Source: a virus. From it: a stretch of 64,000 nt of DNA. The notes below the pieces were generated by a model that saw nothing but the letters and a program-made list of their open reading frames with translations, was not told the DNA's origin and ran no database searches. The stretch is taken from positions 1 through 64,000 of IMG/VR virus record IMGVR_UViG_3300048930_000991. The stretch is one strand, 5' to 3'. Shown piece by piece: positions 2,953 through 60,219 of this stretch. The translations under genes and the position numbers were made by a program. Every line of letters begins with the position of its first letter. The first letter of the stretch is position 1.

Positions 2953-3087
2953 TCGTCCGCACAGCACATTCCACTCCCGATATCATGAGAGTGAAGGTGC
3001 AATGCGCTCGACCGCCCCGCCCGGCATGTCGCGACGTGACGATGCTGCTGCGTTCCTTCCCGAAGGACTGTGCGAAGGGGACGTACC

Positions 3088-15669: not shown

Positions 15670-18096
15670 CTATGCAGCGACAAGCGACCTTTCCTCATGG
15701 TAGCTGTAGCGCCGCGAGAGACACCGTGTATCCTGCTGCGGCCCGCGCGTGAGCTCGAGCGTTAGTAGGCTGTCCGTCGGGAAAGCGGGGCTGAGTTCGA
15801 GGCGGAGATACTCGAACAGTTGACGATCGTGCACCGCGATAACCACCTGACGCTTGTGTTCCTTCGAAAGGGTGCGCAACAGCGCGGCGAGATGCGCGAT
15901 GTGGACGTCGTCCATCGACTGCACCGGATCATCGAGGATTAGCCAAGGCAGCGTCCGGGGCACCGAGAGGTGTAGTGCGAGGAAGAGCGTCAGGGCGGCA
16001 GTGTTGAGATTGCCGGCGCTGAGCATGGCGCCGGGCGTGCCTCCGACAGCGCCGCCGTCGCGGTGATCGGTGACGAGCCGAGGCTGGATCCGCTGGGTGC
16101 CCGCAGCAGGTATACGGAACGCGGGGATAAACGGCTCTCCGGGCGCCAGCCGGACGAAGAGGTCGCGCCATAGACGATTGAGGCGCTCGTTGAACTCCCT
16201 TCGGATTATGCCGGAGCGGATGGTGTCCACGGCGTCCCGGATCTTCGTGCCCTGCGCCCTGACCTTCTGAGCACGCTTCTGCGCGTCGTTCACCTTCTTG
16301 AGCGCCTGTTCGTTCTCGCCGAGGCCCTCGGAAATGCTGTCGCTCCGAGCCTGCAGGGTTCTGATCGTCGCCACGGCTTCCCGTCCCCTGCGACGTGCGG
16401 CGAGCCTGTCCTCCAGCCGCCTTAATTCAGTGTCGAGGAGAAGCTGAATTCTTGCACCGGCTCCCACCGGATCCTCTCCGTCCGCCACCGGGTCTCCCGC
16501 GACGGTCCGAGCGAAATCCGACAACGTCTGCCTTGCTGCGGTCAGGGCGACACTACGGGACTGCGCCTCGGTCACCGCTCGCCTAGCCACCACTTCGGCG
16601 GTGCGCAAGCGAGCCCCTTCCCTCAGCGTGTCAATCATGTTTGCGAGTTCCGTCCGGGCCGCATGCAGGTCGGCTACGGCGCGATCGAGACCAGCAAGCG
16701 TTCGGTCATCTAGCACCGCCTGTTCCAGCGCCGCGATCTCTCGATCAAGCCGGTCTACCTGCGTCTGGGCTTCTGTCCTGGTACGTCCGAGCGCGAGAAG
16801 CCGCTGAGCCGATGACGATAGGCTCCGGACCTTGGCATGGACGTGCTCGACGAGGTTGCCGTCATGAACCTCCGCATAGTCGCGGTCGCACACCGGGCAG
16901 GTGTCTCCATCTATGAACGACGTAAGTTCCGAGAGGATGGAACCCAGACCGCCCGATGAGGCCGGAATATCAGCCATTTCGGCATCGATCGTCTTCACTC
17001 GGGACCGCGCGACTTCGACCTCTCCCTGCGCAGTCCCAAGTCGCTCGGCGTCAGTCTTGGCCTTGGTGCTCCGGGCCGACGCGTGCTCGCTTCGCACGGC
17101 CAGCTGTCGCAACGCCGCGTCCGAGAACGCCGCCATGTCGCCCGGCAGGGATATATCCGAGAGCAGCGCCTCGATGCGTGCCCTGAGCGCCAAGTAGCGT
17201 TCCCCGTTCGCCGCCTCCCAGTGGCCGTAGGCGCCGGGCGCCGCAGCGGTGGGATCGGCTATTGATCCAGCGGCCGGCTGGGCCTTCGCCGCCTCCGCGA
17301 TCTCGCGGCGGATCGATGCCAGCTGGCGTCGGTGATCGGTGATCGACGCGAGCGCTTGTTCGTCCTCGTCCGGCCTGAGTTCCGCCTCGATCGCGCCGAG
17401 CGTGCGGTCGTCGAGTTCCAACGACAGATCGAGCGCAGCGGCTGCACTTCGGATCGTCACCATCTGGTGGCCGATATCCTTGGTGACCTGGAGCAGGCTG
17501 GTCCTCTGATCCTCGATCAGGGCATCGATCCGCGTCTTCTCTAACTCGTTGTCGGACCACCCATCGACGATCTTGCGAACGTTGCGGACGTCTCCAAGCG
17601 GCTTGAGGCCGGACTCGATGGCATCGAGGCGGTCGAGACGAAGGAGCTCGCCCACGAACCGCGCGAGCGGCGAGTCCGCGCCGCTGCCGGAATCCTGGTA
17701 GATCTGCAGCAGCTGACCGAGCAGCGCCTGCGGAAGGTAGCTCCGCTCGCTGAAGAAGGTGGTGAGAGGCCCGTCCAGCGGGATGGCCGACGTTACCCCC
17801 TCTGCCGACAGCGTCGCGCGGTACAGCGCCGAGGTGTTGCCTATCGTCGTCTTCACCGCCACGCTGCCCTGTGCGGCCGAGCGGTGCATGAGCTGCGTGG
17901 CAAAGTCGGGATCCGCACGCCGCAGCGACTGCACGCTTCCGGTCAGCGCCAGTTCGATAGCAAAGAGAAGGCTCGTCTTGCCGGCACCGTTCTCGCCGTG
18001 GATGAGTACGACCTGGGCATCGAGCGGGGCGTGCACGTGTCCACGGATGCTGCGGAAGTCGACGACGTCGAGTTCTTTGAGAAGAAGGTCGGTCAC
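15670..18096 (-). CDS. lmuB: Lamassu SMC-like ATPase LmuB (zinc-hook)
   Basis: This 808-residue protein is a RecF/Rad50-type ABC ATPase. Walker A GENGAGKTS is at residues 34-42. Two long helical arms flank a zinc hook, CPVC, near residues 399-402. The ABC signature region MLSAGNLNTAAL is near 690, Walker B LPWLILDDPVQSMDD near 722, and a switch histidine in VVIAVHDRQLF near 750. GTG start; its start overlaps the stop of the middle gene (GTGA). In Lamassu systems this subunit senses foreign DNA ends or structures and releases the effector. The length and architecture are normal for LmuB. Nearest alternatives are general Rad50-like repair ATPases, but the three-gene context argues against them. 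Confidence 0.85.
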   Translation of the reverse strand: MTDLLLKELDVVDFRSIRGHVHAPLDAQVVLIHGENGAGKTSLLFAIELALTGSVQSLRRADPDFATQLMHRSAAQGSVAVKTTIGNTSALYRATLSAEGVTSAIPLDGPLTTFFSERSYLPQALLGQLLQIYQDSGSGADSPLARFVGELLRLDRLDAIESGLKPLGDVRNVRKIVDGWSDNELEKTRIDALIEDQRTSLLQVTKDIGHQMVTIRSAAAALDLSLELDDRTLGAIEAELRPDEDEQALASITDHRRQLASIRREIAEAAKAQPAAGSIADPTAAAPGAYGHWEAANGERYLALRARIEALLSDISLPGDMAAFSDAALRQLAVRSEHASARSTKAKTDAERLGTAQGEVEVARSRVKTIDAEMADIPASSGGLGSILSELTSFIDGDTCPVCDRDYAEVHDGNLVEHVHAKVRSLSSSAQRLLALGRTRTEAQTQVDRLDREIAALEQAVLDDRTLAGLDRAVADLHAARTELANMIDTLREGARLRTAEVVARRAVTEAQSRSVALTAARQTLSDFARTVAGDPVADGEDPVGAGARIQLLLDTELRRLEDRLAARRRGREAVATIRTLQARSDSISEGLGENEQALKKVNDAQKRAQKVRAQGTKIRDAVDTIRSGIIRREFNERLNRLWRDLFVRLAPGEPFIPAFRIPAAGTQRIQPRLVTDHRDGGAVGGTPGAMLSAGNLNTAALTLFLALHLSVPRTLPWLILDDPVQSMDDVHIAHLAALLRTLSKEHKRQVVIAVHDRQLFEYLRLELSPAFPTDSLLTLELTRGPQQDTRCLSRRYSYHEERSLVAA

Positions 18097-18704
18097 GCTT
18101 TCTCCTCCTTATCCCGTAAAGCGGCATCGATCAGTCGGGCGATCGCGGTGGTCACGGCCTCCTCGCCGTGCTCCGCCGCCGCCATGATCGCCTCGATGGT
18201 ACCGCTGTCCACAGTATTCGCCAGCGCAGCCCGCAGCTGTTCCTGCGCCGATCCGGCTTGGTCCTCCGGACCCGACTGCGGGATCGAGAGTGGCAACAGC
18301 ACCCGGATGCTATCTTCCAGCCGGCGGAGGTCCGGCGTGCCGTCGTCACAGAGGGGAAGCGTGTCGACGTGCAGGACGCGGGCCGTTTCTGCGAGCGATT
18401 CCATGTCGCTCGAGAGCGCAGCGCCGGCCAGCACCACGGTCAGGACATATCTGGATGCGGTTACATCGAGAGCACGGCTCATCGCTTGAACGCGGTGACG
18501 GACGCGAGCGCCGTCGCTGTCTCCGAAGTCTCCTGCCGTTGTGTCGATCAAAAGTACAAGATCCAGCGCGCGCCCGCGCCTGCCACGCAGCGCTCCCGTG
18601 AACTGGAACTCGACGCCGGCGATCCTGAATGGAGTCGGAAGATCGTCATACTCAGCCTCGTGGAGGCGCTGCCTTATTGCGGCTATCAGCGGGGAGTCGA
18701 TCAT
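18093..18704 (-). CDS. lmuC: Lamassu middle component LmuC-like
   Basis: This 203-residue protein has no motif I can name. The N-terminal half is a mixed alpha/beta fold (LDLVLLIDTTAGDF, SRYVLTVVLAGAAL) and the C-terminal half is helical and acidic (EQLRAALANTVDSGTIEAIMAAAEHGEEAV). It is locked between the SIR2 gene (ATGA overlap) and the ATPase gene (GTGA overlap). Small, poorly conserved middle proteins with exactly this position are typical of Lamassu (DdmB in Vibrio) and of ABC-three-component systems. There they bridge the effector and the SMC dimer. The name is inferred from position and size. Confidence 0.7.
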   Translation of the reverse strand: MIDSPLIAAIRQRLHEAEYDDLPTPFRIAGVEFQFTGALRGRRGRALDLVLLIDTTAGDFGDSDGARVRHRVQAMSRALDVTASRYVLTVVLAGAALSSDMESLAETARVLHVDTLPLCDDGTPDLRRLEDSIRVLLPLSIPQSGPEDQAGSAQEQLRAALANTVDSGTIEAIMAAAEHGEEAVTTAIARLIDAALRDKEEKA

Positions 18705-20455
18705 AGCAGCACCTCCGCCACGAACGTCGCGCGCAGCCCATCGATGTCGCCGGATACGCGCAGCATCTCGCCGACGCTGACATGGGATGGCTCCAGCGTT
18801 CCCGTCCTACCAGGTGCGCTGCCGGGCGACCTGCCTGATCGAACCGCCATCGTTCGATGCCACGTGTCGTCCGAATGAATCACGAGGGCGTTGTCGTTTG
18901 CGTACGCTCCATCCGACTGGAGACGGATTGCCTCCGACACCGACTTCACGAGGAAGACGGGACGGATCGGCGCGCCGGGACGATCGGCCTGAAGCGATGC
19001 CACGCCAGCGGTCAGCTCATCACCGGTCGGCGGCTTGACGGACCATTTGCCTGAAGATCGACCATGCTCCAGTAGGGCCAACGTGACGGCGAGATGGCCG
19101 AGGTTCGAGCTTCGGGCGTTCTGATCGGCGGCTAGAATCGCGGCAGTCGACTGGCTGACTTGCTCGTATGCGGTGGGATCACGCTGAAGGGTACCGCCGC
19201 GGAAGACCGACAGAAGTCGCGACCAGTATGCGATTCCCTGGTTCACCGCGGGCGTACGGTCTTCGGCGACGGCGTCGACGGTCGCGCCAGCAGCGAAGAG
19301 GTCACGCAGATCGTTCAGCGATTCAGTCAGCTCGGCGCAGAGCGCGGCCTTGCCGATGGCCGCTAGCGCGAGTTCCATGAGGCAGGCTAGCTTGTCGGTT
19401 ATTGTCTTGAGCACCAACGCGATCAAGACCTGTTCGCCCCAGGCCCGCATGTGACAGGCACGGTGTATGTCGACAATGTTGCCGTTGTAGGCGCCACCGT
19501 AGACCAGGCGCAGGACATCGACCTGCCCCTGCTTGATCTCGTCCTCGCAGAAGACGTGTCCCGGGGCGTCCGGTTCGCAAGGCCATGGCCAGGGATTTAT
19601 GGCCGTTGCCTCGGTGAAGACGGCCTGAAGGTTCATGTCCTGGATCGACAGGCCTAGCACCAGCGACTTCTTGTTCGTTGCCACGTCGCGGACCGCGTTC
19701 CGCATCGCCGCGAAGTCCTGATTGTAGGGCCACCTGCCTATTTGCGTGTGACTACCGGTAAGGAATCGTCGATATTTTGCCTCGTCCTGCTGCGCATGCT
19801 CGACGCACCCGTGGAATTTGAGCAGCGTGGCCTTGCCAGGCGGATCGCGAAGCTGACCAGGATCGACGACGATCTGCAGCAGTCCGGGCACGCTGCCGCC
19901 GAGACGCCGGACGGCGGCCTCGATGAAGCCGTCCCAGTTCGCGGAGGCGATCGTCTGAACCGCGCCCTCAAGCACCAGGATCGCGATGCACAGGTGCGCG
20001 GCTGCCGGCGGGGCCGGGTGCGCGAACTGCCGTCGGATGTCAATCGCGTTCCAAAGGATGAAGTCTGAAGGCTCGTCCGGAATGCGGATATCAAGGATAC
20101 GGGAGTAGCTGTTCCAGAGCGTGTCGACGATCTGCTTGCGGAGCGCCCATTCGTCGAACGGCCGGTGCAGGTCGGATCCGATCGTGGCGCGATCCAGACC
20201 AGCAAACCTGAGTGCCTCGTCCAGCGCCGGCAGGTAATCCGCGGCAATCGCCGGATTTGAGGTGCATGCCCGAATATACTCCATCGCTGCAGCGATCAGC
20301 CCGCCAAGGCTTGGCGCCCGTCTCGAGATGCCGGAGCCGATCCACAGCGCGAACTCGCCGTTCTCGACCGCCTTCGCGGTCGATGCGAATTCCCCGTCGA
20401 GCTTCGCCAGTACCTGGCGCACAGTTATGTCAGTCGCGCTGGGCACAAGACCCAC
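18701..20455 (-). CDS. lmuA: SIR2-domain effector, Lamassu LmuA (Sir2 type)
   Basis: This 584-residue protein has an N-terminal SIR2-like fold: GSGIS at residues 40-44 for the dinucleotide loop, SANWDGFIE at 171-179 with the Asn and Asp that hold NAD, KFHG at 213-216 with the catalytic His215, and VLGLSIQDMNL near 266-276. The remaining 300 residues are helical and not recognised. Defence SIR2 proteins deplete NAD+ once activated, causing abortive infection. GTG start, with GGGGAGG placed well upstream. It is the first gene of a three-gene coupled operon with the middle protein and SMC ATPase, which matches the Lamassu-Sir2 subtype. Confidence 0.82.
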   Translation of the reverse strand: MGLVPSATDITVRQVLAKLDGEFASTAKAVENGEFALWIGSGISRRAPSLGGLIAAAMEYIRACTSNPAIAADYLPALDEALRFAGLDRATIGSDLHRPFDEWALRKQIVDTLWNSYSRILDIRIPDEPSDFILWNAIDIRRQFAHPAPPAAAHLCIAILVLEGAVQTIASANWDGFIEAAVRRLGGSVPGLLQIVVDPGQLRDPPGKATLLKFHGCVEHAQQDEAKYRRFLTGSHTQIGRWPYNQDFAAMRNAVRDVATNKKSLVLGLSIQDMNLQAVFTEATAINPWPWPCEPDAPGHVFCEDEIKQGQVDVLRLVYGGAYNGNIVDIHRACHMRAWGEQVLIALVLKTITDKLACLMELALAAIGKAALCAELTESLNDLRDLFAAGATVDAVAEDRTPAVNQGIAYWSRLLSVFRGGTLQRDPTAYEQVSQSTAAILAADQNARSSNLGHLAVTLALLEHGRSSGKWSVKPPTGDELTAGVASLQADRPGAPIRPVFLVKSVSEAIRLQSDGAYANDNALVIHSDDTWHRTMAVRSGRSPGSAPGRTGTLEPSHVSVGEMLRVSGDIDGLRATFVAEVLL

Positions 20456-28571: not shown

Positions 28572-28817
28572 ATGGCCACGAGGGTCACGGCCAAGGCTCA
28601 GGTCACCATCCCCAAGGAGGTCCGCGACCTGCTCGGCATCACGCCGGGCAGCGTGGTCACCTTCGAAGTGACTGCGGACGGGCGGGTGGTTCTCAGCAGG
28701 GTGGGCAGCCTGGGGCCTGCGACGCGCCCGCCAAGCCGCTTTGCAAAGCTGCGCGGCCGCGCAAGCGCCGGAATGACCACCGAGGAGATCATGGCGCTGA
28801 TGCGAGGCGATGGGTGA
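28572..28817 (+). CDS. AbrB/VapB-type antitoxin
   Basis: This 81-residue protein begins MATRVTAKAQVTIPKEVRDLLGI. The SpoVT-AbrB swapped-hairpin DNA-binding domain spans residues 3-45, and the C-terminal MTTEEIMALMRGDG is the helix that normally plugs the toxin. A GGAGG site precedes the ATG. The start of a PIN-domain toxin overlaps the last codons, but the toxin is cut short. The gene is on the plus strand, opposite to all late genes, between portal and gpW. It may now act as a stand-alone antitoxin or regulator. Confidence 0.82.
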   Translation: MATRVTAKAQVTIPKEVRDLLGITPGSVVTFEVTADGRVVLSRVGSLGPATRPPSRFAKLRGRASAGMTTEEIMALMRGDG

Positions 28818-28893
28818 GGCCGTCGTCGTCGACCCCAATGTCCTGCTAAACCCGCTCACCGCAGAACGTCGCGCCCAAAGCGTGCGAGCGTGA
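28810..28893 (+). pseudogene. Truncated PIN-domain (VapC-like) toxin
   Basis: The frame starts eight bases before the antitoxin gene ends and gives MGEAVVVDPNVLLNPL, the first strand of a PIN domain with its catalytic Asp. Only about fifteen residues match: at 28856 the sequence becomes the end of the phage gpW gene, and the frame stops after 27 residues. A whole PIN toxin is about 130 residues, so the toxin cannot be active. The break coincides with the gpW stop codon, which marks the edge of the insertion. Confidence 0.75.
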
Positions 28894-29092
28894 CAGAGGG
28901 TCGGCGCGCCGCACTGTTCTCCGCACCATGCAACGCCGCGAGCGCCCGGCCGAGTTCGTCAAGGCCGCGGTACTCCACGGTGCGCCCATCGAAGGACACG
29001 CGCGTGGTGCCGCCGGTGTAGGCCGCCGCGAGAGTGGCGGCGCGACTGCCCGCTGGCTGCGCCAACGCCCAGGCGAGGACAGTCGGATCCAT
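28856..29092 (-). CDS. gpW-like head-tail connector
   Basis: This 78-residue protein is mostly helical with a central beta hairpin (TTRVSFDGRTVEYRGLDELGRAL), as in lambda gpW. It begins MDPTVLAWALAQP and ends GRDVLR. Its ATG overlaps the upstream stop (TGATG). gpW binds the portal complex after packaging. In lambda it lies directly before the portal gene; here the inserted antitoxin fragment (28572-28855) separates the two without damaging either. Confidence 0.75.
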   Translation of the reverse strand: MDPTVLAWALAQPAGSRAATLAAAYTGGTTRVSFDGRTVEYRGLDELGRALAALHGAENSAARRPSVTLARFGRDVLR

Positions 29093-30064: not shown

Positions 30065-31975
30065 TCAGCGCAGCCAGCCGTGGCGCGGCGCGAGCCAGCC
30101 ACGCGGACGATGGGCGTCGGACGCGGCCGGCGGCGGAGCGACATGCCCGCCGATGGGAAGCTCGCTCGGTTGGAGCGGGGCGTTGGCGACCTGCTCGCGC
30201 AGCTGCGCCCAAAACCGCTCGCCATAGCGGTCGGCGCCGAGCAGCCAGAGCGCCGCGCGGGCCAGCACGGCGCAGTCCAGCGCTTCGTTCCGTTCCCTGA
30301 GCTTCGCCCATTCCTGCCGGGCGAAGCCGCGACGATCGTTGGTGGTGCGCAGCTGCTCGGCGACCAGCTGCTTGACCCACTCCGCCTCGATGCCCCGCGG
30401 CAGATGCACCCAGCCGGGCGGGAATTCCTCGGCGTCGCCGCGGCCGAGCCAGAGCCGGCGGTACAGGTCGGCCTTCCAGGTCGAGACCGAGACCGTCCAG
30501 AGCTTCAGGCCCCGCCGGAGCTTGCGACCATCGACCAGCGCATCCACCGGCGTCGGCCCCTGGACAGGTTGCGCTCGGTTCCAGCCATCCACGCCCTTGG
30601 TCGGGGCGATGCGTGGATCCCGCAGGCGACGGAGATGGCCATAGACGGCGGCGGTGTCGCGCCCGCCGGTATCCACGCAGAGCCGGGCGATGCGCATCGC
30701 GCCGCCGCCATGGCGTGGCCAGTCGCGCGCCAGCAGTTTGGCGAGTTCGTCCCAGGGCTCGCGGTCCCGCGGGCTGCCCGGGATCACCACGTGATCGACG
30801 AGCCACGACGAGAAGCCCTCCGCCCAGCCCCAGACGTCGCATTCCAGGCGATCGTCCTGAACGTCCACGCCGGCGGTCAGCACCAGCGCGCCCGCAGGCA
30901 CGACGCCCATGGCGAAATCCTCGCGGCGCTCGACGAGCCGCTCCCAATCCGGCGCCTCGCCCTGCTCCTGCCAGGTCTCGCCCAGCACGGTGTTCTTGAA
31001 GGTCTTGATGTCCTCGGGCTTGCCCTGCGCTGCCTCCCAATCCCGAGCGATCTGCGCCCAGGACAGCCAGCCCACCGGCGAGTAGAGCGCCGAGATGTGG
31101 AAGCCGATCGTGTGCGGATCCTGGCCCTCGGCCGTCGCGCGCCATTCCCCACCGCCGAGCATGGCGGTCTTATCGTGCTCCTGCATCGGGTGGTCGCAGG
31201 CCGAGCAGTGATACCGTGCCGTCTCCGGCGCGCCCTTCTCCCAGAGCAAACGCTCGAAGCGCAGCCACTGCATCTCGCCGCATTCCGGGCACGGCACGAA
31301 GAAGCGCCGCTGGTCGCTGGCCAGATACTCCCGCTCGATGCGGCTGCGGCCGGCGATGGTCGGCGTGCTGACCAAGAAAGCCTTGCGGCGCCAGCCGAAG
31401 GTGCGGGCGCGCGCCTCGGCCAGGGCAATCGGATCGCCCTCGCCGGCGACATCGCCGGGATAGGCGTCCACCTCGTCGAGGAACAGGAACCGCGCCGTCA
31501 TCGAGCGCAGCCCGACCGCGCTGTTCGCACCCGTCAGCACCAGGATGCCGCCGGGGAATTCCTTCGACAGCATCGTGTTGCCGCTGTCGCGCGCCCGTGC
31601 CGGCGTAACCCTCTCCCGCAGCGCGGGCGTTTCCTCCAGCAGGGGATCGATGCGCTGCCGCGAGAAGCGCTTGGCCAGCTCCACGGTCGGCTGCACCGCC
31701 AGCGCGGGCGCCGGCACGTGGTGCATGATGTAGCCGAGCCAGTTGTTGCCGCTTTCGGTGGCGCCGACCTGCGCGCCCTTCATGAACACGACGCGCCGGG
31801 CCGGATGCACCGCCGACAGCGCGTCCATCACGTCCTTCAAATAGGGCGTGCGGCTGGTGCGCCACGGCCCTGGCTCGGCCGAGGCGCGGCTGCCGAGCAT
31901 GCGGTGCAGCTCGGCCCATTCCGACACCGTGAGCTGCGGCGGGGGCCGGAGCATGGCGCCGACACGCCGGCGCAC
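30065..31975 (-). CDS. Terminase large subunit (GpA family)
   Basis: This 636-residue protein is a lambda gpA-type packaging motor. The ATPase has FMKGAQVGATESGNN near residue 65 as Walker A and FLFLDEVDAYPGD near 165 as Walker B. Two CxxC pairs (CPECG and CSACD, about residues 230-260) form a zinc site seen in GpA proteins. The nuclease domain has LVLTAGVDVQDDRLE near 355 and LCVDTGGRDT near 445 with the acidic metal ligands. An alternative start at MLRPPPQL is seven codons in. It cuts and packages phage DNA at the portal. Confidence 0.92.
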   Translation of the reverse strand: MRRRVGAMLRPPPQLTVSEWAELHRMLGSRASAEPGPWRTSRTPYLKDVMDALSAVHPARRVVFMKGAQVGATESGNNWLGYIMHHVPAPALAVQPTVELAKRFSRQRIDPLLEETPALRERVTPARARDSGNTMLSKEFPGGILVLTGANSAVGLRSMTARFLFLDEVDAYPGDVAGEGDPIALAEARARTFGWRRKAFLVSTPTIAGRSRIEREYLASDQRRFFVPCPECGEMQWLRFERLLWEKGAPETARYHCSACDHPMQEHDKTAMLGGGEWRATAEGQDPHTIGFHISALYSPVGWLSWAQIARDWEAAQGKPEDIKTFKNTVLGETWQEQGEAPDWERLVERREDFAMGVVPAGALVLTAGVDVQDDRLECDVWGWAEGFSSWLVDHVVIPGSPRDREPWDELAKLLARDWPRHGGGAMRIARLCVDTGGRDTAAVYGHLRRLRDPRIAPTKGVDGWNRAQPVQGPTPVDALVDGRKLRRGLKLWTVSVSTWKADLYRRLWLGRGDAEEFPPGWVHLPRGIEAEWVKQLVAEQLRTTNDRRGFARQEWAKLRERNEALDCAVLARAALWLLGADRYGERFWAQLREQVANAPLQPSELPIGGHVAPPPAASDAHRPRGWLAPRHGWLR

Positions 31976-31979
31976 ATGC

Positions 31980-32495
31980 TCACGGCTGCGGAGCCCGATC
32001 CCCTCCGAGGCCTGCTGGATCGAAGCGATCGGCCGCCTCCGTCAGCAGGTCGGTGATGTGGCTCTGCAGGATGGTCTGCAGCAGATGCGGATCGACGCTG
32101 ATCTCGGCAGCGATCAGGCCCGACACGCGGGCCGGCCAGTTCAGCAGCGCGTCACGCATCGTGCTGCCGATCTCGTCGAGCGCGGCATTCGCCTCGGTGA
32201 CATCGACCAGGCGGCGCTTGGTCTCATCCAGCGAGAGGCGCTGCGCCTCCACCTTCAGCGCGAGCTGCGCGACCTTCAGCCGGGCGAAGGGCGTGCCATC
32301 CGCACCGGCACCGCTGGCCAGGGGCGAGCGGGCGGGGTCGGCGGTCTCGGTCAGGCGGCGTCGGGTCTTGTCGATATCCCACTGGCCGTCCGGCTCGCGG
32401 GCGATGCGGTTGGTCTGCTCGGCCTTGCGCAGCGCGGTCTCGGTGATGCCGATGCGGCGGGCGGCCTCGCGGGTCGAAGGCGTGAGTTCTGGCAC
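31980..32495 (-). CDS. Terminase small subunit (Nu1-like)
   Basis: This 171-residue protein starts with a GTG. The N-terminus (STREAARRIGITETALRKAEQTNRI) is a winged-helix/HTH like that of lambda gpNu1. A long helical segment, FARLKVAQLALKVEAQRLSLDETKRRLVDV, suits oligomerisation, and the C-terminus should contact the large subunit. The large terminase gene begins four bases after its stop. The DNA just upstream carries a broken mazF gene. Confidence 0.78.
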   Translation of the reverse strand: MPELTPSTREAARRIGITETALRKAEQTNRIAREPDGQWDIDKTRRRLTETADPARSPLASGAGADGTPFARLKVAQLALKVEAQRLSLDETKRRLVDVTEANAALDEIGSTMRDALLNWPARVSGLIAAEISVDPHLLQTILQSHITDLLTEAADRFDPAGLGGDRAPQP

Positions 32496-32519
32496 GGCGG
32501 CATGTCTCCCGCCGCGGCG

Positions 32520-32624
32520 ATGGTGACGAGCGTGGGAAAGGGCCCGGACTGCTCATGCCCGGCCTGGGGGTCGAACCGCAGCCAGATGATGCGGCCCGAG
32601 TCCGGGACGTAAGGCGCGTATCAC
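32520..32624 (-). pseudogene. Truncated and frameshifted MazF toxin
   Basis: A GTG overlaps the mazE stop (GTGA), the usual mazEF linkage. After about four codons a one-base shift leads into a frame reading YVPDSGRIIWLRFDP and QAGHEQSGPFPTLV. This matches the first 35 or so residues of MazF (compare the conserved YVPD, FDP and EQ-G features). At about 32520 the similarity ends and the sequence runs into the small terminase start. With both a frameshift and loss of most of the protein, no active endoribonuclease can be made. Confidence 0.72.
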
Positions 32625-32863
32625 CACACCTCACGGCCCTTCGGCGGGCCAAAGTGGACCGCATCGTGGCAGTTCTCATCGGTGATGCCGTCGAGCAGCG
32701 CGGCCAGGTCGTAGGCCGCTTCGTGGACGGGCTCGATGATGATCCGCCCCGCCTCCTCGCGGATCTCGACCGCCTGGTCCACCGAGAGGCGCGCGGCCGC
32801 CATGACCGGCGCGGGGATGCGCACGGAGGCACTGTTGCCCCACTTCTTCACGATCACGCGCAT
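32621..32863 (-). CDS. mazE: MazE/ChpAI-type antitoxin
   Basis: This 80-residue protein begins MRVIVKKWGNSASVRIPAPV, the MazE/AbrB DNA-binding hairpin, and continues with the toxin-binding tail (PVHEAAYDLAALLDGITDENCHDAVHFGPP). It is the normal length and appears intact. The start at 32863 has an AGAGGG site; a longer frame would add seventeen residues. The cognate mazF immediately downstream is broken, so this is the second toxin-less antitoxin in the prophage. It lies directly upstream of the terminase genes. Confidence 0.85.
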   Translation of the reverse strand: MRVIVKKWGNSASVRIPAPVMAAARLSVDQAVEIREEAGRIIIEPVHEAAYDLAALLDGITDENCHDAVHFGPPKGREVW

Positions 32864-33000
32864 GACACCCTCTGCCTGCTCCTCGCGCAGAGGAGGAAGG
32901 GAGGACGGCGGCATGTGTCAACGATACTGATACAAACCCGCCGGGGATCCCGATGATCCCCGGCGGCGGCGATAAGCGCTGGAGTTGCGGTTGGCCGTCG

Positions 33001-33792
33001 TCACTCGGCGATGCGGTAGATGCTGTAGGACCCGCGGGCGCCCTCCTTGTTCGGGCCGACCTGCCGGACGCGCTCCAGCACCTGCACCTCGATCCCCTGG
33101 CGCTTCTTCAGGCCCGCAAAGAAGCCGCGGACCGTGTGCTGCTGCCAGCCGGTGGACTCGCAGATCTGCGCGATGGTCGCGCCCTCCTCGCGGCGGAGCA
33201 GGGCCAGCACCGCCTCCTGCTTCGTGCCCTCGCGCGGCTTCCGCGAGGCGCCGGGCTCGCGCTGCGCGCGGGGCGGCTTGCCTGCCAGGGCGGCGCGGAG
33301 GGCGGCCATCGGGCCGTCGAGGGCGGCGATGATATCCGTCTCGCGGTTGGCCTCGTCGTACCAGGCGGCCAGCACCGCGACGGCGGCGTCGCGCAGGCTC
33401 GCACGCCGGGTGGGCGTGGGCGCGCCCTGGGCGGGTTCGGCTTCCTCCGCGCGGGCGTCTCCCTCAGCGGCGTCCTCCCCGCCCGTGGGCGCCGTGTCGG
33501 CGAACGGGGCGGCGCCCTTCGCGTCGTCCTCGTTCGGGTCAATGCCGATGGCGCGCAGCCCCTCGTCGGTGATGCGCGCCACGATCCAGGTCCCGTCCTC
33601 ATCCTGCCGCCAGCCGAGGCCGACATGCTCGCGCGGGGCGTTGATCTCGGTGAGCAGGTTGGTCTTGATCAGGCTGCGGAACACCGCGTTGCGGGCAGCG
33701 GCCGGCAGGGTCTTCGGCGCGCGGGCGAGGCCCATCTCGTGCTGCGCGGCGGCGCTCAGGATCACGCGCTGGGAGTCGGAAAGCTTCGTCAT
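33001..33792 (-). CDS. DUF3489-domain protein
   Basis: This protein has 263 residues. The C-terminal domain (about residues 190-260) is a winged-helix-like DUF3489: TKQEAVLALLRREEGATIAQICESTGWQQHTVRGFF. The N-terminal part (KLSDSQRVILSAAAQ) resembles a second small helical domain. The centre is acidic and disordered. Such proteins are common in alphaproteobacterial prophages and islands and are thought to bind DNA; the function is not known. It lies upstream of the mazE remnant. Confidence 0.8.
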   Translation of the reverse strand: MTKLSDSQRVILSAAAQHEMGLARAPKTLPAAARNAVFRSLIKTNLLTEINAPREHVGLGWRQDEDGTWIVARITDEGLRAIGIDPNEDDAKGAAPFADTAPTGGEDAAEGDARAEEAEPAQGAPTPTRRASLRDAAVAVLAAWYDEANRETDIIAALDGPMAALRAALAGKPPRAQREPGASRKPREGTKQEAVLALLRREEGATIAQICESTGWQQHTVRGFFAGLKKRQGIEVQVLERVRQVGPNKEGARGSYSIYRIAE

Positions 33793-34302: not shown

Positions 34303-34542
34303 ATGGGCACGATGAACGTCTCCCTTCCCGACGCGCTGAAGGCCTTCGTCGACCAGCAGGTCGAAAGCGGCGGCTACAGCACGAGCAGCGAATACGTCCG
34401 CGAGCTGATCCGGAAGGATCAGGACCGCCAGCGCCTGCGCGGCCTGCTGCTGGCCGGAGCGGCGTCCCGCCCGGGCACCGTGGCTGACGACGCTTATTTC
34501 GACGGGCTGCGCCAACGTCTGCGCGGCGCCGATCGGGCGTGA
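34303..34542 (+). CDS. parD: ParD antitoxin
   Basis: This 79-residue protein is a ribbon-helix-helix antitoxin of the ParD/CC2985 type: MNVSLPDALKAFVDQQV forms the DNA-contacting strand and SGGYSTSSEYVRELIRKDQ is the classical segment. The C-terminal helix should neutralise the toxin. Its end overlaps the parE start. The gene probably starts at the first or fourth codon. The preceding intergenic region (34118-34302) separates it from the divergent small gene and should contain its self-regulated promoter. Confidence 0.88.
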   Translation: MGTMNVSLPDALKAFVDQQVESGGYSTSSEYVRELIRKDQDRQRLRGLLLAGAASRPGTVADDAYFDGLRQRLRGADRA

Positions 34543-34880
34543 CCGCGCGGCAGGTCATCCCGCGGGAGCTTGCGCTACAGGACGTCGACGAGGCGATCGC
34601 CCATTACCAGGCGGAGGGCGGCGATCCCCTCGCTCTGCGCTTCATCGACGCCCTACAGCAGGCGTTCCGCCGCCTGGGCGCGCATCCGGGCGTCGGCTCC
34701 CTCCGCTACGCCTACGAGTTGGGCCTAGACGGGCTGCGCGCCTGGCCACTGCGGCGCTTTCCGTTCGTCGTATTCTACCGCGAGCAGCCCGACCACATCG
34801 ACGTCTGGCGCGTGCTGCACGCCCAGCGCGACATCCCGGCCTGGATGGAGGACCCCGAGGCGCCGCCGGACGCGCCGTGA
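34539..34880 (+). CDS. parE: ParE toxin
   Basis: This 113-residue protein of the RelE/ParE superfamily begins with a GTG overlapping the parD stop. The expected features are a two-helix N-terminus (LALQDVDEAIAHYQAEGG and ALRFIDALQQAFRRLGAHPGVGS), then strands around LRAWPLRRFPFVVFYREQPD and VWRVLHAQRDIPAW. ParE toxins poison DNA gyrase. All parts of the fold are present, so unlike the other two toxin genes this one looks intact. It ends one base before the end of the convergent methyltransferase gene. Confidence 0.88.
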   Translation: MTARQVIPRELALQDVDEAIAHYQAEGGDPLALRFIDALQQAFRRLGAHPGVGSLRYAYELGLDGLRAWPLRRFPFVVFYREQPDHIDVWRVLHAQRDIPAWMEDPEAPPDAP

Positions 34881-48268: not shown

Positions 48269-48853
48269 TCACGGCCGCGACGGCATCGGCGTCGCCGCGC
48301 GTGCGGATGCCGCAGGCTCGGGGCGCACACCGAGCGTGCGCAGCCAGCAGCGCAGGTCGTGCAGCTCGCGATAGAAGGTGGCGGGGGAGACAGCGCCGGC
48401 GTCGCGCGCGGCCACGACATCACGGTGCAGGATGATCCGCCCCAGCAGCGCTCGCGGTGCCGGCGGCAGATCCTCGCCGACGCGCCCGAATGCGATGCCG
48501 ATGTCGGGATCTGCCTGCGGCACCACGAGGGAACTGCGGATGTCAGCAGCGAACTCGCCATCGAGGGACACGCACGCCGGCGGCGATGGCTGCCGCGCGC
48601 GATCGATGACGGCACGCCGCGCGAGCACGGCGACGAAGGTGGTCCAGGACGCCCGCGTAACGTCGAAGCGCTGGCCCGCTTCAAGGATGACCAGCAGGAT
48701 GTCCTGGGTCAGGTCCTCTCGGTCCTCCCGGGCCAGGCGACGCTGCCGGGCGAAACGCGCGGCGTGGCAGCGGGCCGCCGCCAGAGCCACACGGACCTGA
48801 CGTTCATCCCATTTTTCAGGAAGATGCGCCTGCGATTTCTGTTTCTCTCTCAT
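48269..48853 (-). CDS. Sigma-70-like regulator
   Basis: This 194-residue protein starts at MREKQKSQAHLPEK. The middle resembles sigma region 2: REDLTQDILLVILEAGQRFDVTRASWTTFVAVLARRAVID, including the LTQD-IL helix and W-T positions. The C-terminal half is a second helical domain (PPAPRALLGRIIL, SPATFYRELHDLRCWL) resembling region 4. It is the first gene of the early minus-strand operon, next to the GGGTGCG repeats. It may direct polymerase to later phage promoters. An anti-sigma gene is not seen. Confidence 0.7.
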   Translation of the reverse strand: MREKQKSQAHLPEKWDERQVRVALAAARCHAARFARQRRLAREDREDLTQDILLVILEAGQRFDVTRASWTTFVAVLARRAVIDRARQPSPPACVSLDGEFAADIRSSLVVPQADPDIGIAFGRVGEDLPPAPRALLGRIILHRDVVAARDAGAVSPATFYRELHDLRCWLRTLGVRPEPAASARAATPMPSRP

Positions 48854-48910
48854 CCCACGGCCCTTCCGGCTCGGTTGATTGCGATGAGCCGAGATCAGCG
48901 GCGCGGTCGG

Positions 48911-49054
48911 GGGTGCGGCTAGGGCACGGGGGTGCGCAGGGGTGCGCTGAACGCCCCCGCTCATCATCGCACCCCATAACAACTCAATGCGTTAGCGCTC
49001 CCCATCAATCACTTACGCACCAGGGGGTGCGTGATAGCCGCGATCACCGCACCC
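48911..49054. repeat. GGGTGCG operator-like repeat cluster
   Basis: GGGTGCG occurs at 48911-48917, 48930-48936, 48940-48946 and 49025-49031, with inverted copies (CGCACCC) at 48968-48974 and 49048-49054 and a partial one near 49016. They fill the gap between the early operon start (48853) and the divergent repressor operon (49148), where a lambda-like repressor would bind. The intervening DNA contains a more A+T-rich patch (48975-49014) suited to a promoter. Confidence 0.68.
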
Positions 49055-51127: not shown

Positions 51128-51630
51128 CGCGCACCACGAAGCCCAAGCCCGCCACCCCGCCGGCGTTCGCCGCCCCCGCCATCCCCCCTGCCGACGTGCT
51201 GGGCCGGCTCGCCGCCCTGAAGACCGCCGCCACACCCGCGCTGAAGCAGCAGTGGCGCGACCTCTTCGGCACCGAGCCGCCGCCCTACAACCGGCGCTTC
51301 CTGGAGAGCCGGCTCGCCTACCGAATCCAAGAGCTTGCCTATGGCGGCCTGAAGCCGGAGACGCTGGCGCGGCTCGAGGCGCTCGGCGAGCAGCTCGACG
51401 GCGGCAAGGTCACCGTCCGCCGCATGCGCGGCGATGATAAGCCGCTCGCCGGCACGCAGCTGATCCGCGAGTACCGGGGCGTCGAGCACGTCGTGACCGT
51501 GACGCGCGCCGGCTACGAGTACGGGGGCCGCCCCTACCAATCGCTCTCTGCCATCGCCCGCGCCATCACTGGCACGCGGTGGAACGGCCGCGTGTTCTTC
51601 GGCCTGCGCCCGAGTCGGGGCGCGGCATGA
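51124..51630 (+). CDS. DUF2924-domain protein
   Basis: This 168-residue protein has the DUF2924 core: LKQQWRDLFGTEPPPYNRRFLESRLAYRIQ, then LIREYRGVEHVVTVTRAGYEYGGRPYQSLSAIARAITGT. The final part resembles a small DNA-binding fold with the YxSLSAIA-A-TG pattern. It always appears before a serine recombinase in many alphaproteobacterial islands and may be a directionality or accessory factor. It overlaps both neighbours by four bases. Confidence 0.85.
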   Translation: MTRTTKPKPATPPAFAAPAIPPADVLGRLAALKTAATPALKQQWRDLFGTEPPPYNRRFLESRLAYRIQELAYGGLKPETLARLEALGEQLDGGKVTVRRMRGDDKPLAGTQLIREYRGVEHVVTVTRAGYEYGGRPYQSLSAIARAITGTRWNGRVFFGLRPSRGAA

Positions 51631-52979
51631 AGCGCGACGCGAAGGCGACCGGCATCATGCCGGGCACCGTGAAGAAGCTCCGCTGCGCGGTCTACACCCG
51701 GAAGTCGAGCGAGGAAGGCCTCGACATGGAGTTCAACTCCCTCGATGCGCAGCGCGAAGCGTGTGAGGCGTTTATCGCCAGCCAGCGCGCCGAGGGCTGG
51801 GTGCTGGTGCGCGAGCGCTACGACGATGGCGGCATCTCCGGCGGGACGCTGGAACGCCCCGCCCTGAAGCGCCTCGTCGCCGACATCCAGGAGGGGCTGG
51901 TCGACGTGGTGGTGGTGTACAAGATCGACCGCCTGAGCCGCTCGCTGGTCGACTTCACCAAGCTGGTCGAGGTGTTCGACGCGAACCAGGTCACCTTCGT
52001 CTCGGTGACGCAGTCATTCAACACCACCACCAGCATGGGGCGGCTGACGCTGAACATCCTCCTGTCTTTCGCGCAGTTCGAGCGGGAGGTCATCGGCGAG
52101 CGGATCCGCGACAAGGTCGCGGCGTCGCGCAAGCGGGGCATGTGGATGGGCGGCTTCGTGCCGCTGGGCTACGACGTGCGCGAGCGAAAGCTGTTGGTGA
52201 ACGACGCAGAGGCCGCATTGGTGCGGCGGATCTTCCAGGGCTTCGTCGAGATGGAATCGTGCACGAGGCTGGTGCAGGTGCTGCGCGCCGAGGGCGCCAC
52301 GACGAAGCGGGGCCGCCCACTGACCAAGAGCGACGTCTACCGCATCCTCAGCAACCGCGTGTACCTCGGCGAGGCGGTGCACAAGGGCACGGCCTATCCC
52401 GGCGAGCACGACGCCATCGTCACCCAGGCGCAGTGGGACGCGGTGCATGCCATCCTGCAGGTCAGCCCGCGGGTGCGGGTCAACCGGACACGGAACACCA
52501 CCGCGCCGCTGCTGCGCGGGCTGATCTTCGATAGCGACGGCCGCGCCATGTCGCCGAGCCATAGCCGCGGCCGAGGCGGGCAGATGTACCGCTACTATGT
52601 CAGCCAGGCGGTGCTGAAGGGCGGCGCGACGGAACGGCCGGCGATCGCGCGTCTGCCGGCCGGCGAGATCGAAGCGGCGGTGGTCGCGCAGGTCCGCGGG
52701 CTTCTGCGGCAGCCAGAGATGGTGGTCGGCACCTGGCGGGCCGCGCGCAGCACAGCGCCGGACGTCACCGAGCAGGAGGTACTGCTGGCGCTGGAGCGGA
52801 TCGAACCGCTGTGGGACGAGCTGTTCCCGGCCGAGCGGGCGCGCATCGTGCGGCTGCTGGTGGACCGCGTCGACGTCCGGGCCGAGGGCGCCGCGGTGCG
52901 GCTGCGGCTGGACGGGCTCGGCAGCCTGGTGCGCGACCTCGCTGCGCAGGCGCCCGAGGCCGGGAGGGTCGCAGCATGA
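51627..52979 (+). CDS. Serine recombinase, likely prophage integrase
   Basis: This protein has 450 residues. The resolvase domain includes CAVYTRKSSEEGLDMEFNSLDAQREA (nucleophile Ser in RKSS near residue 29) and VVYKIDRLSRSLVDF. The recombinase domain follows, with VPLGYDVRERKLLVND and an RGLIFDSDGRAMSPSHSRG stretch. That last part takes the place of the zinc ribbon but has no cysteines. The C-terminus has a coiled-coil-like segment. The start (MKRDAKATG) overlaps the DUF2924 stop. It is the probable integrase of the prophage by position, and the right att site should lie close by. Confidence 0.87.
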   Translation: MKRDAKATGIMPGTVKKLRCAVYTRKSSEEGLDMEFNSLDAQREACEAFIASQRAEGWVLVRERYDDGGISGGTLERPALKRLVADIQEGLVDVVVVYKIDRLSRSLVDFTKLVEVFDANQVTFVSVTQSFNTTTSMGRLTLNILLSFAQFEREVIGERIRDKVAASRKRGMWMGGFVPLGYDVRERKLLVNDAEAALVRRIFQGFVEMESCTRLVQVLRAEGATTKRGRPLTKSDVYRILSNRVYLGEAVHKGTAYPGEHDAIVTQAQWDAVHAILQVSPRVRVNRTRNTTAPLLRGLIFDSDGRAMSPSHSRGRGGQMYRYYVSQAVLKGGATERPAIARLPAGEIEAAVVAQVRGLLRQPEMVVGTWRAARSTAPDVTEQEVLLALERIEPLWDELFPAERARIVRLLVDRVDVRAEGAAVRLRLDGLGSLVRDLAAQAPEAGRVAA

Positions 52980-53471: not shown

Positions 53472-56400
53472 ATGGCTATCGCAACGATCAAGCAGCTTTG
53501 CACGCCCAATGCTGTCGTCACCGGCGACAGCCTCGTTGAGCAAGTTGCGCAGATTGATGATCTCGCCAAAGGCAAGGTCGATGGCCGTGAATTCTTCCGA
53601 CGAAATCACTTCACCTCCGGCCTAGACTTGCTCGTGAAGCGCGGGTTCGATCGGCTCGCGGGCAAGTCAGAAGATGGCGCCTTCTACCTCACCCAGGCCA
53701 TGGGAGGAGGAAAAACCCACAGCCTCATCGCATTCGGGCTTTTGGCTTCAGACCCCGCCCTCAGGCGGGAAATCGTGCCGCGCATCGTCACGGGCTCGGA
53801 ATTCGGCGCGGCCAAGGTGGTCATCTTCAACGGCCACCAGAACCCGGAGACCCTCCTCTGGGGCTACATCGCCGAACAGCTCGGCCGGCCTGATGTGATG
53901 GCGCCGTTCTGGCGTAGTGGTGCGAAGACACCCGGCGTCGATGAATGGGTGCAGGCCCTCGGCACCGAACCCGTTCTCATCCTTTTGGACGAGCTGCCCA
54001 GCTACCTCCAGATGGCCCAGGGCGAGCCGGTGGGCGCCACAACCCTCGGCGACCTGACGATCGGCGCCTTGGAGCGGCTGTTCAACGCGCTGCCGCGATG
54101 CCCGCGTGCCTGCGTCGTCGTCACCAATCTGAAGGACGACGTGTACCTGGAGGGCTCAGGCCAGCTCCGCACGCTGATTGAGAGCCTGACCAAGCACTAC
54201 GATCGCAACGCCCAGGCCATCACGCCCGTCCAGCAAAACTCGGGCGAGGTCTTCGCCATTGTCCGAAAGCGCCTCTTCGACGGCTTGCCCAGCGCGGACC
54301 GGATCGACGAGATCGCGCAGGCCTACGTTGCCGCTCTCCAGAAGGCCAAACGGGTCGACACGATCCCCACCACGCCGGAGACCTTTGTCGAGCGCATCCG
54401 GGAAACCTACCCGTTCCATCCGTCGATCCGCGACATCGTCGCCCGTTTCGCCGAGAATCGCGGCTACCAGAAGACGCGCGCCCTAATCCGTTTGCTTCGC
54501 CTCGCCGTCCGGGGCGCGATGGCGAGCAATGGCAACGCATTCCTGGTCGGCCTCCAGCACCTCGATTTCAACGACCAGGCCACGATCGAGGAAATCCGGA
54601 AGATCAACCCGGCCTATAGCAACGCAATCTCGCGCGACGTCTCCGACCGCGGCAACGCCCTCGCCGAGAAGATCGACGCGATCGACGGCAACACGACCGC
54701 ATCGGGTGTTGCGAAGCAGCTGCTGATGTCCTCGCTCTCCAACGCTGAGTCCCCCCTGCGCGGCCTCACAGACGGCGAGCTGATCGAGACCCTGGTTGAT
54801 CCCCTGCTCGAAGTCTCCGAGATCAAGACCGCGCTCAGCCGCATTCAGGGCCAGGCTTGGTATCTCTTTCAGGGCATCGATCAGCGCGTATTCTTTGGCC
54901 AGACGGCCAACGTCACCGCTGAGATCACCGAGATCGCGGCCAACATCGCCGAGGAACAGGTCGACCAGACCCTGCGTGAGAAGCTGCGCGAGGTCTTCAA
55001 GCCGCGGGCCGGGGCGCTGTACTCGGACAAGATGGCCATCCTGCCGGCGCTGGATGAGATCCAGCTCGACGACGAACGCCCCACGCTGGTGATCCTGGAA
55101 CGGCCCGCCGACAAGCTGCCGCAGGACTTCGTCGACTGGTGGAACAAGCAGGACCTGCAGAACCGCGTCCTCGTCCTCACCGCCGACCCCAATGCCGTCA
55201 CCACGCTGCGGCTCAGCGCGCGACGCATGAGAGCCATCGGCAAAGTGGAGGAGCGCATCAAGGCGCAGCACGGCCAGGGCTCGCCGCAGATGGCCGAACT
55301 CGATGGCGTGCGCGACCGTGAAGCGGCCAACTTCACCAGCGCCCTGCGCGAGACCTTTAAGACCATCGTGTTCCCGATGACGAAGGCGCTGCGTCGCGTG
55401 GACGACTTCCGCATGGAGTTCGACCGCAACGACTACTCCGGCGAGCAGCAGATCATCGACACGCTGACGAAGCGTGGCAAATTCATCCCGAGCGATCAGT
55501 TCGACGGCAAGTTCGAGAACATCCGGCTCGATGCTGAGGACATGCTGTTCGACGCCGACGCAGTGCAGGCATCGTCGTTGCGCCGCAATGCTGCTGTCCG
55601 CTCCGGCTGGTTCTGGCTGCCGAAGGGCGGGCTGGAGCAGTTGGTCCGCACCGCCGTGCAGCGAGGCTTCTGGCGCGAGAAGGAGGGCCTGGTCGCCAAG
55701 AAGTGGGAACGCCTGACGAAGGTCACCGCCCGGCAGGATGACTTCGCCCAGGACCCGATGGTCACCGGCCGCTTCCAGATCAACGTCACCCCCGAGGATG
55801 CCGACATCGTCTATGTGTCGGAGAGCGGCCCTCCCGACCCCGCAAAGGCCACCAGGCTGGATGGGCGCGTCTATGAGACGGCGGCACCGGCGGTCTGGTT
55901 CCTCGGCGTCGATTCCAAGGGCGTGGCGAAGACCGGCGCTGCCTGCGAGTGGCGCGCGACCCTGCGCGTGAAGCCCGACGTGCGGCGCCTGGCCACCGGC
56001 TATCGCGTGGCGCTCCTGGCCATCCCGCGGGCTGCAACGATTCGCGCGACCTTTGACGACACCGACCCCCGGACCGGGCCGGAGGTGCCGCACGCTGAGA
56101 TCGATGCGCCGCCCAACGCCCGCAAGCTGCGCGTGGTCGCGGAACTGCATGGACAGTTCAGCCAGGAGGAAACCGCTCCGCTGGCGACCGGCATGGATGA
56201 AGGCCCCTTCAACCCAAGCAAGCCGAAGCTGAAGCCCGACGCCCCTGTCACCATGATCTCCAAGTTCGAGCCGAAGGACACCGCGGCGGCTTTCTCCGCG
56301 CTCGACCGCTTGGCGAAGCTGCCGGAAGCAAAGGTGCTTGGCGGCACGATCGACTTGAACGGCATGCGGTCGGAGGCGGATTTCCTCACGCTCCGTCTGG

Positions 56401-56591
56401 GGCGTGACGTGCCCATTCCCGCTTCGGCACTCGATCAGAAAGTGAAGGATTTGCTGGCCTTGCTCTCCGCCGAGGCGCCCACGGTGAAGCTCCGGCTCGA
56501 CGGTATTGCCTTTCCGTCCGGACGGGACCTCATGGCCTTCTGCGACGCGGCAGGTGAGGATTTCGACCGCGTCGCCTGGAAGCAGGACTGA
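53472..56591 (+). CDS. DUF499 AAA+ ATPase, anti-phage-associated
   Basis: This 1039-residue protein has Walker A QAMGGGKTHS near residue 77 and a Walker B/sensor stretch EPVLILLDELPSYLQ near 155. VVVTNLKDDVYLEG follows. The N-terminal start IKQLCTPNAVVTGDSLVEQVAQIDDL is typical of the family. The C-terminal third is beta-rich and may bind partners. In known loci DUF499 proteins are encoded with DUF3780, DUF1156 methyltransferase and PLD-helicase genes, as here. The ATPase probably drives DNA inspection or remodelling. It starts the operon with only 64 bases of leader after the recombinase cassette. Confidence 0.85.
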   Translation: MAIATIKQLCTPNAVVTGDSLVEQVAQIDDLAKGKVDGREFFRRNHFTSGLDLLVKRGFDRLAGKSEDGAFYLTQAMGGGKTHSLIAFGLLASDPALRREIVPRIVTGSEFGAAKVVIFNGHQNPETLLWGYIAEQLGRPDVMAPFWRSGAKTPGVDEWVQALGTEPVLILLDELPSYLQMAQGEPVGATTLGDLTIGALERLFNALPRCPRACVVVTNLKDDVYLEGSGQLRTLIESLTKHYDRNAQAITPVQQNSGEVFAIVRKRLFDGLPSADRIDEIAQAYVAALQKAKRVDTIPTTPETFVERIRETYPFHPSIRDIVARFAENRGYQKTRALIRLLRLAVRGAMASNGNAFLVGLQHLDFNDQATIEEIRKINPAYSNAISRDVSDRGNALAEKIDAIDGNTTASGVAKQLLMSSLSNAESPLRGLTDGELIETLVDPLLEVSEIKTALSRIQGQAWYLFQGIDQRVFFGQTANVTAEITEIAANIAEEQVDQTLREKLREVFKPRAGALYSDKMAILPALDEIQLDDERPTLVILERPADKLPQDFVDWWNKQDLQNRVLVLTADPNAVTTLRLSARRMRAIGKVEERIKAQHGQGSPQMAELDGVRDREAANFTSALRETFKTIVFPMTKALRRVDDFRMEFDRNDYSGEQQIIDTLTKRGKFIPSDQFDGKFENIRLDAEDMLFDADAVQASSLRRNAAVRSGWFWLPKGGLEQLVRTAVQRGFWREKEGLVAKKWERLTKVTARQDDFAQDPMVTGRFQINVTPEDADIVYVSESGPPDPAKATRLDGRVYETAAPAVWFLGVDSKGVAKTGAACEWRATLRVKPDVRRLATGYRVALLAIPRAATIRATFDDTDPRTGPEVPHAEIDAPPNARKLRVVAELHGQFSQEETAPLATGMDEGPFNPSKPKLKPDAPVTMISKFEPKDTAAAFSALDRLAKLPEAKVLGGTIDLNGMRSEADFLTLRLGRDVPIPASALDQKVKDLLALLSAEAPTVKLRLDGIAFPSGRDLMAFCDAAGEDFDRVAWKQD

Positions 56592-56596
56592 CGATC

Positions 56597-60216: not shown

Positions 60217-60219
60217 CCC

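Follow-up and report, generated by a model that had tools for sequence, protein, structure and literature searches.

Orphan (solo) antitoxins are reported to be abundant in genomes (PMC2701414, PMC10790755) and, on plasmids, to be frequent in leading regions, with a suggested part in anti-defence (PMC11541004). Among phages, cyanophage S-CREM1 is described as carrying MazE, YefM, and TacA genes, with a MazE reported to lack homology to that of its host (PMC9964418), and prophages of Acetobacter are described as carrying mazEF among other modules (PMC9379143). For Bacillus phage phi3T, AimX and YosL are reported to bind and inactivate MazF and to favour lysis; these proteins resemble MazE in the MazF-binding region, and such MazF inhibition would be the activity proposed for the MazE considered here (PMC10769878). 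On the cellular side, the chromosomal ccd toxin-antitoxin system of Erwinia chrysanthemi has been discussed as an anti-addiction system, i.e., one in which an antitoxin copy may protect in trans against a homologous toxin (PMC2654758). With the orphan antitoxins of phages, prophages, and plasmids, the locus described here has in common a partnerless antitoxin on a mobile element. Phage orphan antitoxin-like enzymes directed against DarTG1 have reportedly been the subject of study as well.

The locus described herein is of this already known kind, to which it adds the detail of a slot with graded states. Compared to other orphan antitoxins, it retains a visible toxin remnant, and relatives carry open pairs in the same slot; its history is thus readable. 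It differs from AimX and YosL in encoding a whole MazE complete with DNA-binding domain, and from the ccd system of E. chrysanthemi in being a lone antitoxin. No description of this slot or of the decayed pair was found in the titles and abstract openings listed by literature searches, a result which does not by itself prove absence.

The DNA analysed (hereafter, the window) is a 64,000-nucleotide stretch comprising bases 1-64000 of virus record IMGVR_UViG_3300048930_000991 (record length 65,413 bases). The element is a tailed phage with a serine integrase, probably with hosts among the Acetobacterales. Reading along the minus strand, the DUF3489 gene is followed by a hairpin, mazE, the mazF stub, and the genes for the small and large terminase subunits (Table 1).

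Table 1. Coordinates, strand, and supporting evidence for features of the mazE region and of the neighbouring toxin-antitoxin loci
Feature	Position in window	Strand	Evidence
mazE, intact antitoxin gene, 80 aa	32621..32863	-	PF04014 E 2.1e-9; match to E. coli MazE 1mvf/1ub4
mazF stub, ~25 codons, 5' frame change, cut at CGGGC junction	32542..32624	-	PF02452 positions 2-26 of 109; DNA alignment to L088 and L090
Terminase leader, empty-slot type, right side of junction	32496..32546	-	Best match L037 among 21 loci
Operator-like element of mazE, partly degenerate	32915..32933	-	5/19 mismatches to word of L002 and others
Intrinsic-terminator-like hairpin between DUF3489 gene and mazE	32938..32966	-	Similar hairpins by eye in L002, L090, L094, L207
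DUF3489 gene, left neighbour of slot	33001..33792	-	PF11994 E 1.9e-23
Terminase small subunit, right neighbour of slot	31980..32495	-	phrog_57 E 1.3e-22
Terminase large subunit (gpA)	30065..31975	-	PF05876 E 3.1e-97; PF20454 E 5.6e-95
abrB, second toxin-less antitoxin, AbrB/MazE fold (VapB-like), adjoins portal gene	28572..28817	+	PF04014 E 4.6e-12; 12 related contigs
VapC-like stub, 12-14 codons	28810..28861	+	Toxin open in 11/12 related contigs
ParD and ParE, both open, near region	34303..34880	+	PF03693 E 1.4e-5; PF05016 E 3.3e-14

Elsewhere in the window, the serine integrase is encoded at 51579-52979, and beyond it lies a defence-like island (53472-63996, plus strand) in which PADLOC models place, in order, a DUF499 ATPase, DUF3780, a DUF1156 methyltransferase, a PLD-helicase, and a type IV methyl-directed restriction enzyme. 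Behind a second serine recombinase lie two genes of RepB type, of which the first has a ParB_N match in addition (3070-6454, plus strand); together with the integrase at 51579, this recombinase may mark two joined elements. Near the left end, the tRNA T-arm-like word GGATTCGAACC occurs once in the window, at 116-126, and may mark an attachment site within a tRNA gene; no whole tRNA was found by ARAGORN. An open HipA-like kinase gene and then an HTH_3 protein of 337 aa occupy 381-2536 (plus strand), an order and a size that are unusual for a HipB partner. On the minus strand, an SMC/AAA protein with LmuB (Lamassu) matches is encoded beside a SIR2_2-domain protein (15670-20455), the pair possibly representing a Lamassu-type defence carried by the element. 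A further minus-strand gene product (48269-48982), which may direct phage transcription, has a sigma-70 region 2 domain.

An earlier note on this DNA, made from the sequence alone, had described the mazE gene as full length, and this proved to be so: the PF04014 match exceeds the family cut-off, and residues 4-80, tail included, align with E. coli MazE 1mvf and 1ub4 (phmmer, E 1.6e-18 and 1.8e-18, respectively), with the AbrB-type domain and the C-terminal toxin-binding tail both intact by sequence. The protein is thus like the MazE of E. coli (1ub4) from residue 4 to its end, the closest known system being the MazEF type II module (ChpA, PemIK superfamily). Relatives share the order of mazE followed by an overlapping mazF, with the MazF of L002 matching E. 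coli MazF 1ub4_A at 1.9e-40; the window, in contrast, is without a working mazF. Searches for closer relatives of mazE returned none above 78% identity in genome_contigs, 76% in viral_contigs, or 78% in 397 genomes of the Rubritepida flocculans family (NCBI: Roseomonadaceae, order Acetobacterales). The nearest relatives come from Humitalea, Rubritepida, and other Acetobacterales. Annotated phage records gave three mazE matches, all below 60%, and 378 plasmid records gave a match, with mazF adjoining mazE in all five of those examined.

Where relatives have an overlapping intact mazF downstream of mazE, the window has only a stub of ~25 codons with a frame change. When the entire 65,413-base record was searched in all six frames, PF02452 gave a single match at E <= 0.001 (32525-32596, minus strand; E 5.9e-4), namely this stub, leaving mazE with no adjacent working toxin, i.e., an orphan antitoxin. 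The stub peptide scores 19.9 bits, below the cut-off of 23.1, and reads YVPDSGRIIWLRFDPQAGHEQSG, the start of MazF up to HEQSG, behind the MazE stop and in the frame of MazE itself. A chance match can be ruled out, as this is the sole PF02452 place in the record at that threshold and its position and neighbours are those of mazF in relatives. The MazF N-terminal features that the earlier note had read here, EQSG among them, are thus genuine. The one-base shift it had seen corresponds, in DNA alignment, to a deficit of 2 nt in the stub relative to L088 and L090, close to the mazE overlap; a start that overlaps the stop codon of mazE is thereby put out of frame.

MazF homology fades at ~32542, where terminase-leader sequence takes over (just as the earlier note had placed the end of this frame), and no MazF sequence follows after approximately codon 25. 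Ahead of the terminase gene, the window has CGGGCCCTTTCC ... ACCATC ... GCGGCGGGAG; its best fit among the 21 loci compared is the empty-slot phage L037, with the flanks of L002, L090, and L094 scoring low. MazF homology and leader sequence meet on the same CGGGC. Both sides of this junction can be read directly, and what joined them was probably a deletion, or illegitimate recombination with an empty-slot phage, as the simplest reading of the two flanks.

The slot between the DUF3489 gene and the gene for the terminase small subunit was surveyed across 80 terminase-small loci from IMG/VR. The DUF3489 gene was found at a measurable distance in 73 of these, with a spacing of 82-93 bp (empty) in 24 loci and of 415-3029 bp (filled) in 49. 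Other small genes occupy filled slots among those listed (27 of the 49 filled slots were examined). By eye, two small cargo proteins recur among the slots listed (e.g., L015: 4677-4958, L031: 4641-4922, L052: 4233-4526), one of ~93 aa (ERRWIILAQDGRHVTMGRA...) and one encoded on the minus strand (APKDIEKMVEATAKAMA...). In this set, mazE was found once, in L002, 65% identical to that of the window and with an open 111-aa MazF. Searches by mazE added 12 contigs in which an open mazEF immediately precedes the terminase small-subunit gene (L090, L095, L096, L097, L099, L105, L170-L174, and L207). The distance from the DUF3489 match to the mazE start is 141 bp in L002 and L090, and 499-715 bp in nine others (L095, L097, L099, L105, and L170-L174), which thus hold more DNA in between. 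In this slot, mazEF is thus open in 13 contigs, L002 included, and broken in two, the window and L094; in the latter, which lies in a degraded prophage remnant, mazE is open and mazF carries both a stop and a change of frame.

An open mazEF occupies this slot in 13 other contigs, so that the window holds a decayed copy; that it arose through decay of such a cassette is nearly certain. The full reading, which we hold to be probable, is of a cargo cassette (moron) that lost its toxin first and was left with MazE, with the present retention of MazE being about an even bet. Related phages carry the cassette open between the DUF3489 gene and the terminase small-subunit gene; in the window, mazF has a small frame-changing indel near its start, and deletion or recombination at the CGGGC match would account for the loss of the remainder. 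The toxin would have been lost before the antitoxin, most likely in that order, since losing MazE beside a live MazF would be harmful. MazE would still be producible and able to bind MazF of its subfamily in trans.

A second intact antitoxin with a dead toxin had been claimed near gpW, and this too is borne out. Here, abrB lies between the portal start (28524) and the gene at 28856-29092, to which the earlier note gave the name gpW and for which Pfam gives no match, with the VapC-like codons directly behind it. Searching with the window abrB yielded 12 contigs, with the portal gene adjoining; in 11 of these, VapC is open over 134-138 aa, and the toxin of L232 matches a PIN domain (PF01850, E 3.1e-12). 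In L240, VapC is internally deleted to 58 aa (3251-3427) beside an open antitoxin in the portal-side slot. Searching by VapC gave 17 contigs, all 17 with an antitoxin frame; in L242, the codon at the usual antitoxin start is ATC, beside an open vapC, and this antitoxin may be without a start codon. Both modules are whole in one contig, IMGVR 3300044940_000526. Judged against these contigs, the abrB gene and VapC stub of the window read as a decayed copy of a module that is whole elsewhere. The two cases lie 3.7 kb apart on opposite strands, both terminase genes are open between them, and their junctions differ; the losses were thus separate events, as the earlier note had held, and a single recent deletion that removed both toxins is ruled out.

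Loss of the toxin first is the default decay order of a type II module, and the state of the window therefore needs no benefit. The reason for expecting this order is that a cell with a working toxin cannot do without the antitoxin (PMC2654758). Surveys disagree as to which orphan is in excess: E. coli is reported to have 73,201 occurrences of orphan antitoxins vs. 40,506 of orphan toxins (PMC10790755), and marine genomes the reverse, with 3,099 orphan antitoxins vs. 4,386 orphan toxins (PMC12654330). In our antitoxin-ascertained set of 112 mazE loci (L087-L198, repeats of one contig counted), mazF is broken in four (L094, L104, L165, and L182, where the frame changes late in the gene), truncated by the contig end in two (L111, L187), and open in 106; L209, from a separate search, has a mazF with a stop. 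Among 38 toxin-ascertained viral loci, a MazE-like frame lies upstream in 37 (some of them among the 14 loci verified by tblastn, the rest judged by eye from their ends), with L261 cut by the contig end. A dead toxin beside a live antitoxin thus occurs now and then in these sets.

The asymmetry between toxin and antitoxin loss is not strict. Genome G115 presents the reverse of the window case (L326, G115:C24:3600-5900), in that mazF is open, although a few residues are inserted in frame within a conserved stretch, and mazE is reduced to its tail. In eight further genomes (G140, G194, G227, G259, G307, G344, G358, and G383), mazE matches from residue 20 or 22 only and mazF is split over two frames, i.e., both genes decay; L242, above, likewise departs from the rule.

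MazE drew notice for being intact, and the openness of its frame on its own therefore carries no weight as evidence. Selection was assessed in a joint codon model with shared branch lengths across 16 sequences (mazE, 80 codons; mazF stub, 23 codons). Omega for the stub was 0.356 on the window branch vs. 0.030 elsewhere (2dlnL 12.7), and for mazE 0.149 vs. 0.089 (2dlnL 0.77); an omega of 1 for mazE over the whole window branch was rejected (6.45). The mazF stub is relaxed, and relaxation of mazE is undetectable. Single-gene fits gave, for the window branch vs. the others, 0.087 vs. 0.083 for mazE (p 0.88), 0.049 vs. 0.039 for the terminase small-subunit gene (p 0.75), and 0.102 vs. 0.107 for the DUF3489 gene (p 0.91). 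In the comparison with neighbouring genes that the earlier note had called for, mazE is thus not detectably relaxed, while the adjoining stub is; on the window branch, however, a shared omega for mazE and stub was not rejected (2dlnL 2.46, with only 23 stub codons). On the L094 branch, mazE omega was 0.164 vs. 0.081 (p 0.36), and an omega of 1 was not rejected either (p 0.16). Several branch tests were run, with nominal p values, and the window branch is long (nearest mazE 78% identical; grouping with L088/L167 at support 44).

By pure drift, MazE would be a not-yet-decayed leftover of toxin loss with no present use, an explanation to which we give a nearly even chance. It draws on the expected toxin-first order, on the rarity of broken mazF beside open mazE (4/112), as for a transient state, on a partly degenerate operator, on relaxation of the second antitoxin, and on the equal omega that still stands, but it has to contend with the pattern of substitution. 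Columns invariant in relatives (for mazE, over 14 of them) have changed in the window at 0 of 28 positions in mazE and at 4 of 16 in the stub, with L094 left out of both (Fisher p 0.013), compared to 5 of 47 in abrB (mazE vs. abrB, p 0.15). A model with mazE neutral since the death of mazF (reduced fits, background parameters fixed) also fits poorly, with lnL -2709.22 vs. -2707.71 for constrained mazE; the observed difference was reached in 4 of 150 neutral simulations, and 44 of 150 constrained simulations were at or below it. Neutrality of mazE since toxin loss is thus disfavoured, and the codon data lean, as modest evidence, to continued constraint.

Selective retention, under which the phage gains from MazE alone neutralising host, plasmid, or rival-phage MazF (anti-addiction or counter-defence) and has discarded a costly toxin, is in our estimation somewhat short of even. 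The constraint on mazE beside a relaxed stub speaks for it, as does the supply of targets: among the 397 genomes of the candidate host family, MazE is matched in 86 and MazF in 103 (E <= 0.001), with MazF at least 62% identical over most of its length in 51, including two (G213 and G233) with an internal stop. The broken-toxin state recurs in L094 and, in the second slot, in L240; moreover, MazF-inactivating phage proteins are known in phi3T (PMC10769878), and a cyanophage is reported to have MazE and two other antitoxin genes (PMC9964418). Set against this is the failure to find a closer relative sharing the truncated state, by which post-loss constraint would be directly measurable.

The earlier note had gone further, viewing the two cases together as making selective retention of antitoxins more interesting, but retention as a repeated pattern is unsupported. 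An unrelaxed mazE and the 4/150 simulations are in keeping with it, but the second antitoxin is relaxed or undecided: omega for abrB was 0.134 on the window branch vs. 0.043 (p 0.038, nominal, one of several branch tests), with an omega of 1 also rejected (p 0.0049), and the same neutral-since-loss test gave lnL -1439.25 vs. -1439.76, with 14 of 150 and 7 of 150 simulations. Two-case selective retention is thus unsupported for abrB. The open ParDE nearby counts against it as well and shows that toxins are not generally purged; with the HipA-like gene also open at the left end, general purging of toxins is ruled out. Related ParE stretches are present in 7 of the 80 terminase-small loci (the L010 copy is cut by the contig end). 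For the decayed cassette itself, present selection for a MazE that neutralises the MazF of a host, a plasmid, or a rival phage would be about an even bet, with its continued use possible and mildly favoured by the codon comparisons.

It is improbable that MazE is kept instead as a DNA-binding regulator of a promoter ahead of the terminase genes. Its conserved DNA-binding N-terminus, the terminator-like hairpin that parts mazE from the DUF3489 gene, and the operator-like element upstream are compatible with such a role. Upstream of mazE, GTATCTACAATGTTGACAC is common to L002, L090, L095, L097, L105, L167, and L207, with variants differing at one base in L087 and L091, two in L094, and three in L088. 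The window counterpart, GTATCAGTATCGTTGACAC, has five mismatches over 19 positions to the L002 word, a count reached in 3 of 2000 shuffles, with best matches to the word across 90 other loci ranging from 0 to 10 mismatches. As mazEF modules are autoregulated, this element may, by analogy, act as an operator; nonetheless, its core ACA reads GTA in the window, and mazE is present in only 1 of the 80 terminase-small relatives. The partial degeneracy of this element and the finding of no sigma-70-like promoter in a consensus scan of 32450-33050 also weigh against the main reading, under which MazE could still be made. Lastly, an assembly or sequencing artefact, conceivable for a virus record, is very improbable, as the junction joins mazF to sequence present in other phages and the stub is substituted at columns invariant in relatives.

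Extended to the lineage, these observations might suggest that a phage lineage of Acetobacterales loads toxin-antitoxin modules into fixed slots beside its packaging genes and repeatedly turns them into toxin-less antitoxins acting as counter-toxins against MazF and VapC, whether from hosts or from rival elements, a proposal that we regard as rather doubtful. Ultimately, orphan antitoxins are common and their history is usually erased, whereas this slot presents empty, full-module, and two broken-toxin states side by side, the coexistence of which makes it possible to measure in what order the genes are lost and how selection acts on the one that survives. An active MazE would allow a simple test of the idea that phages retain antitoxins in order to blunt MazF; an inactive one would provide a clean case of an antitoxin that outlasts its toxin without bringing any benefit.
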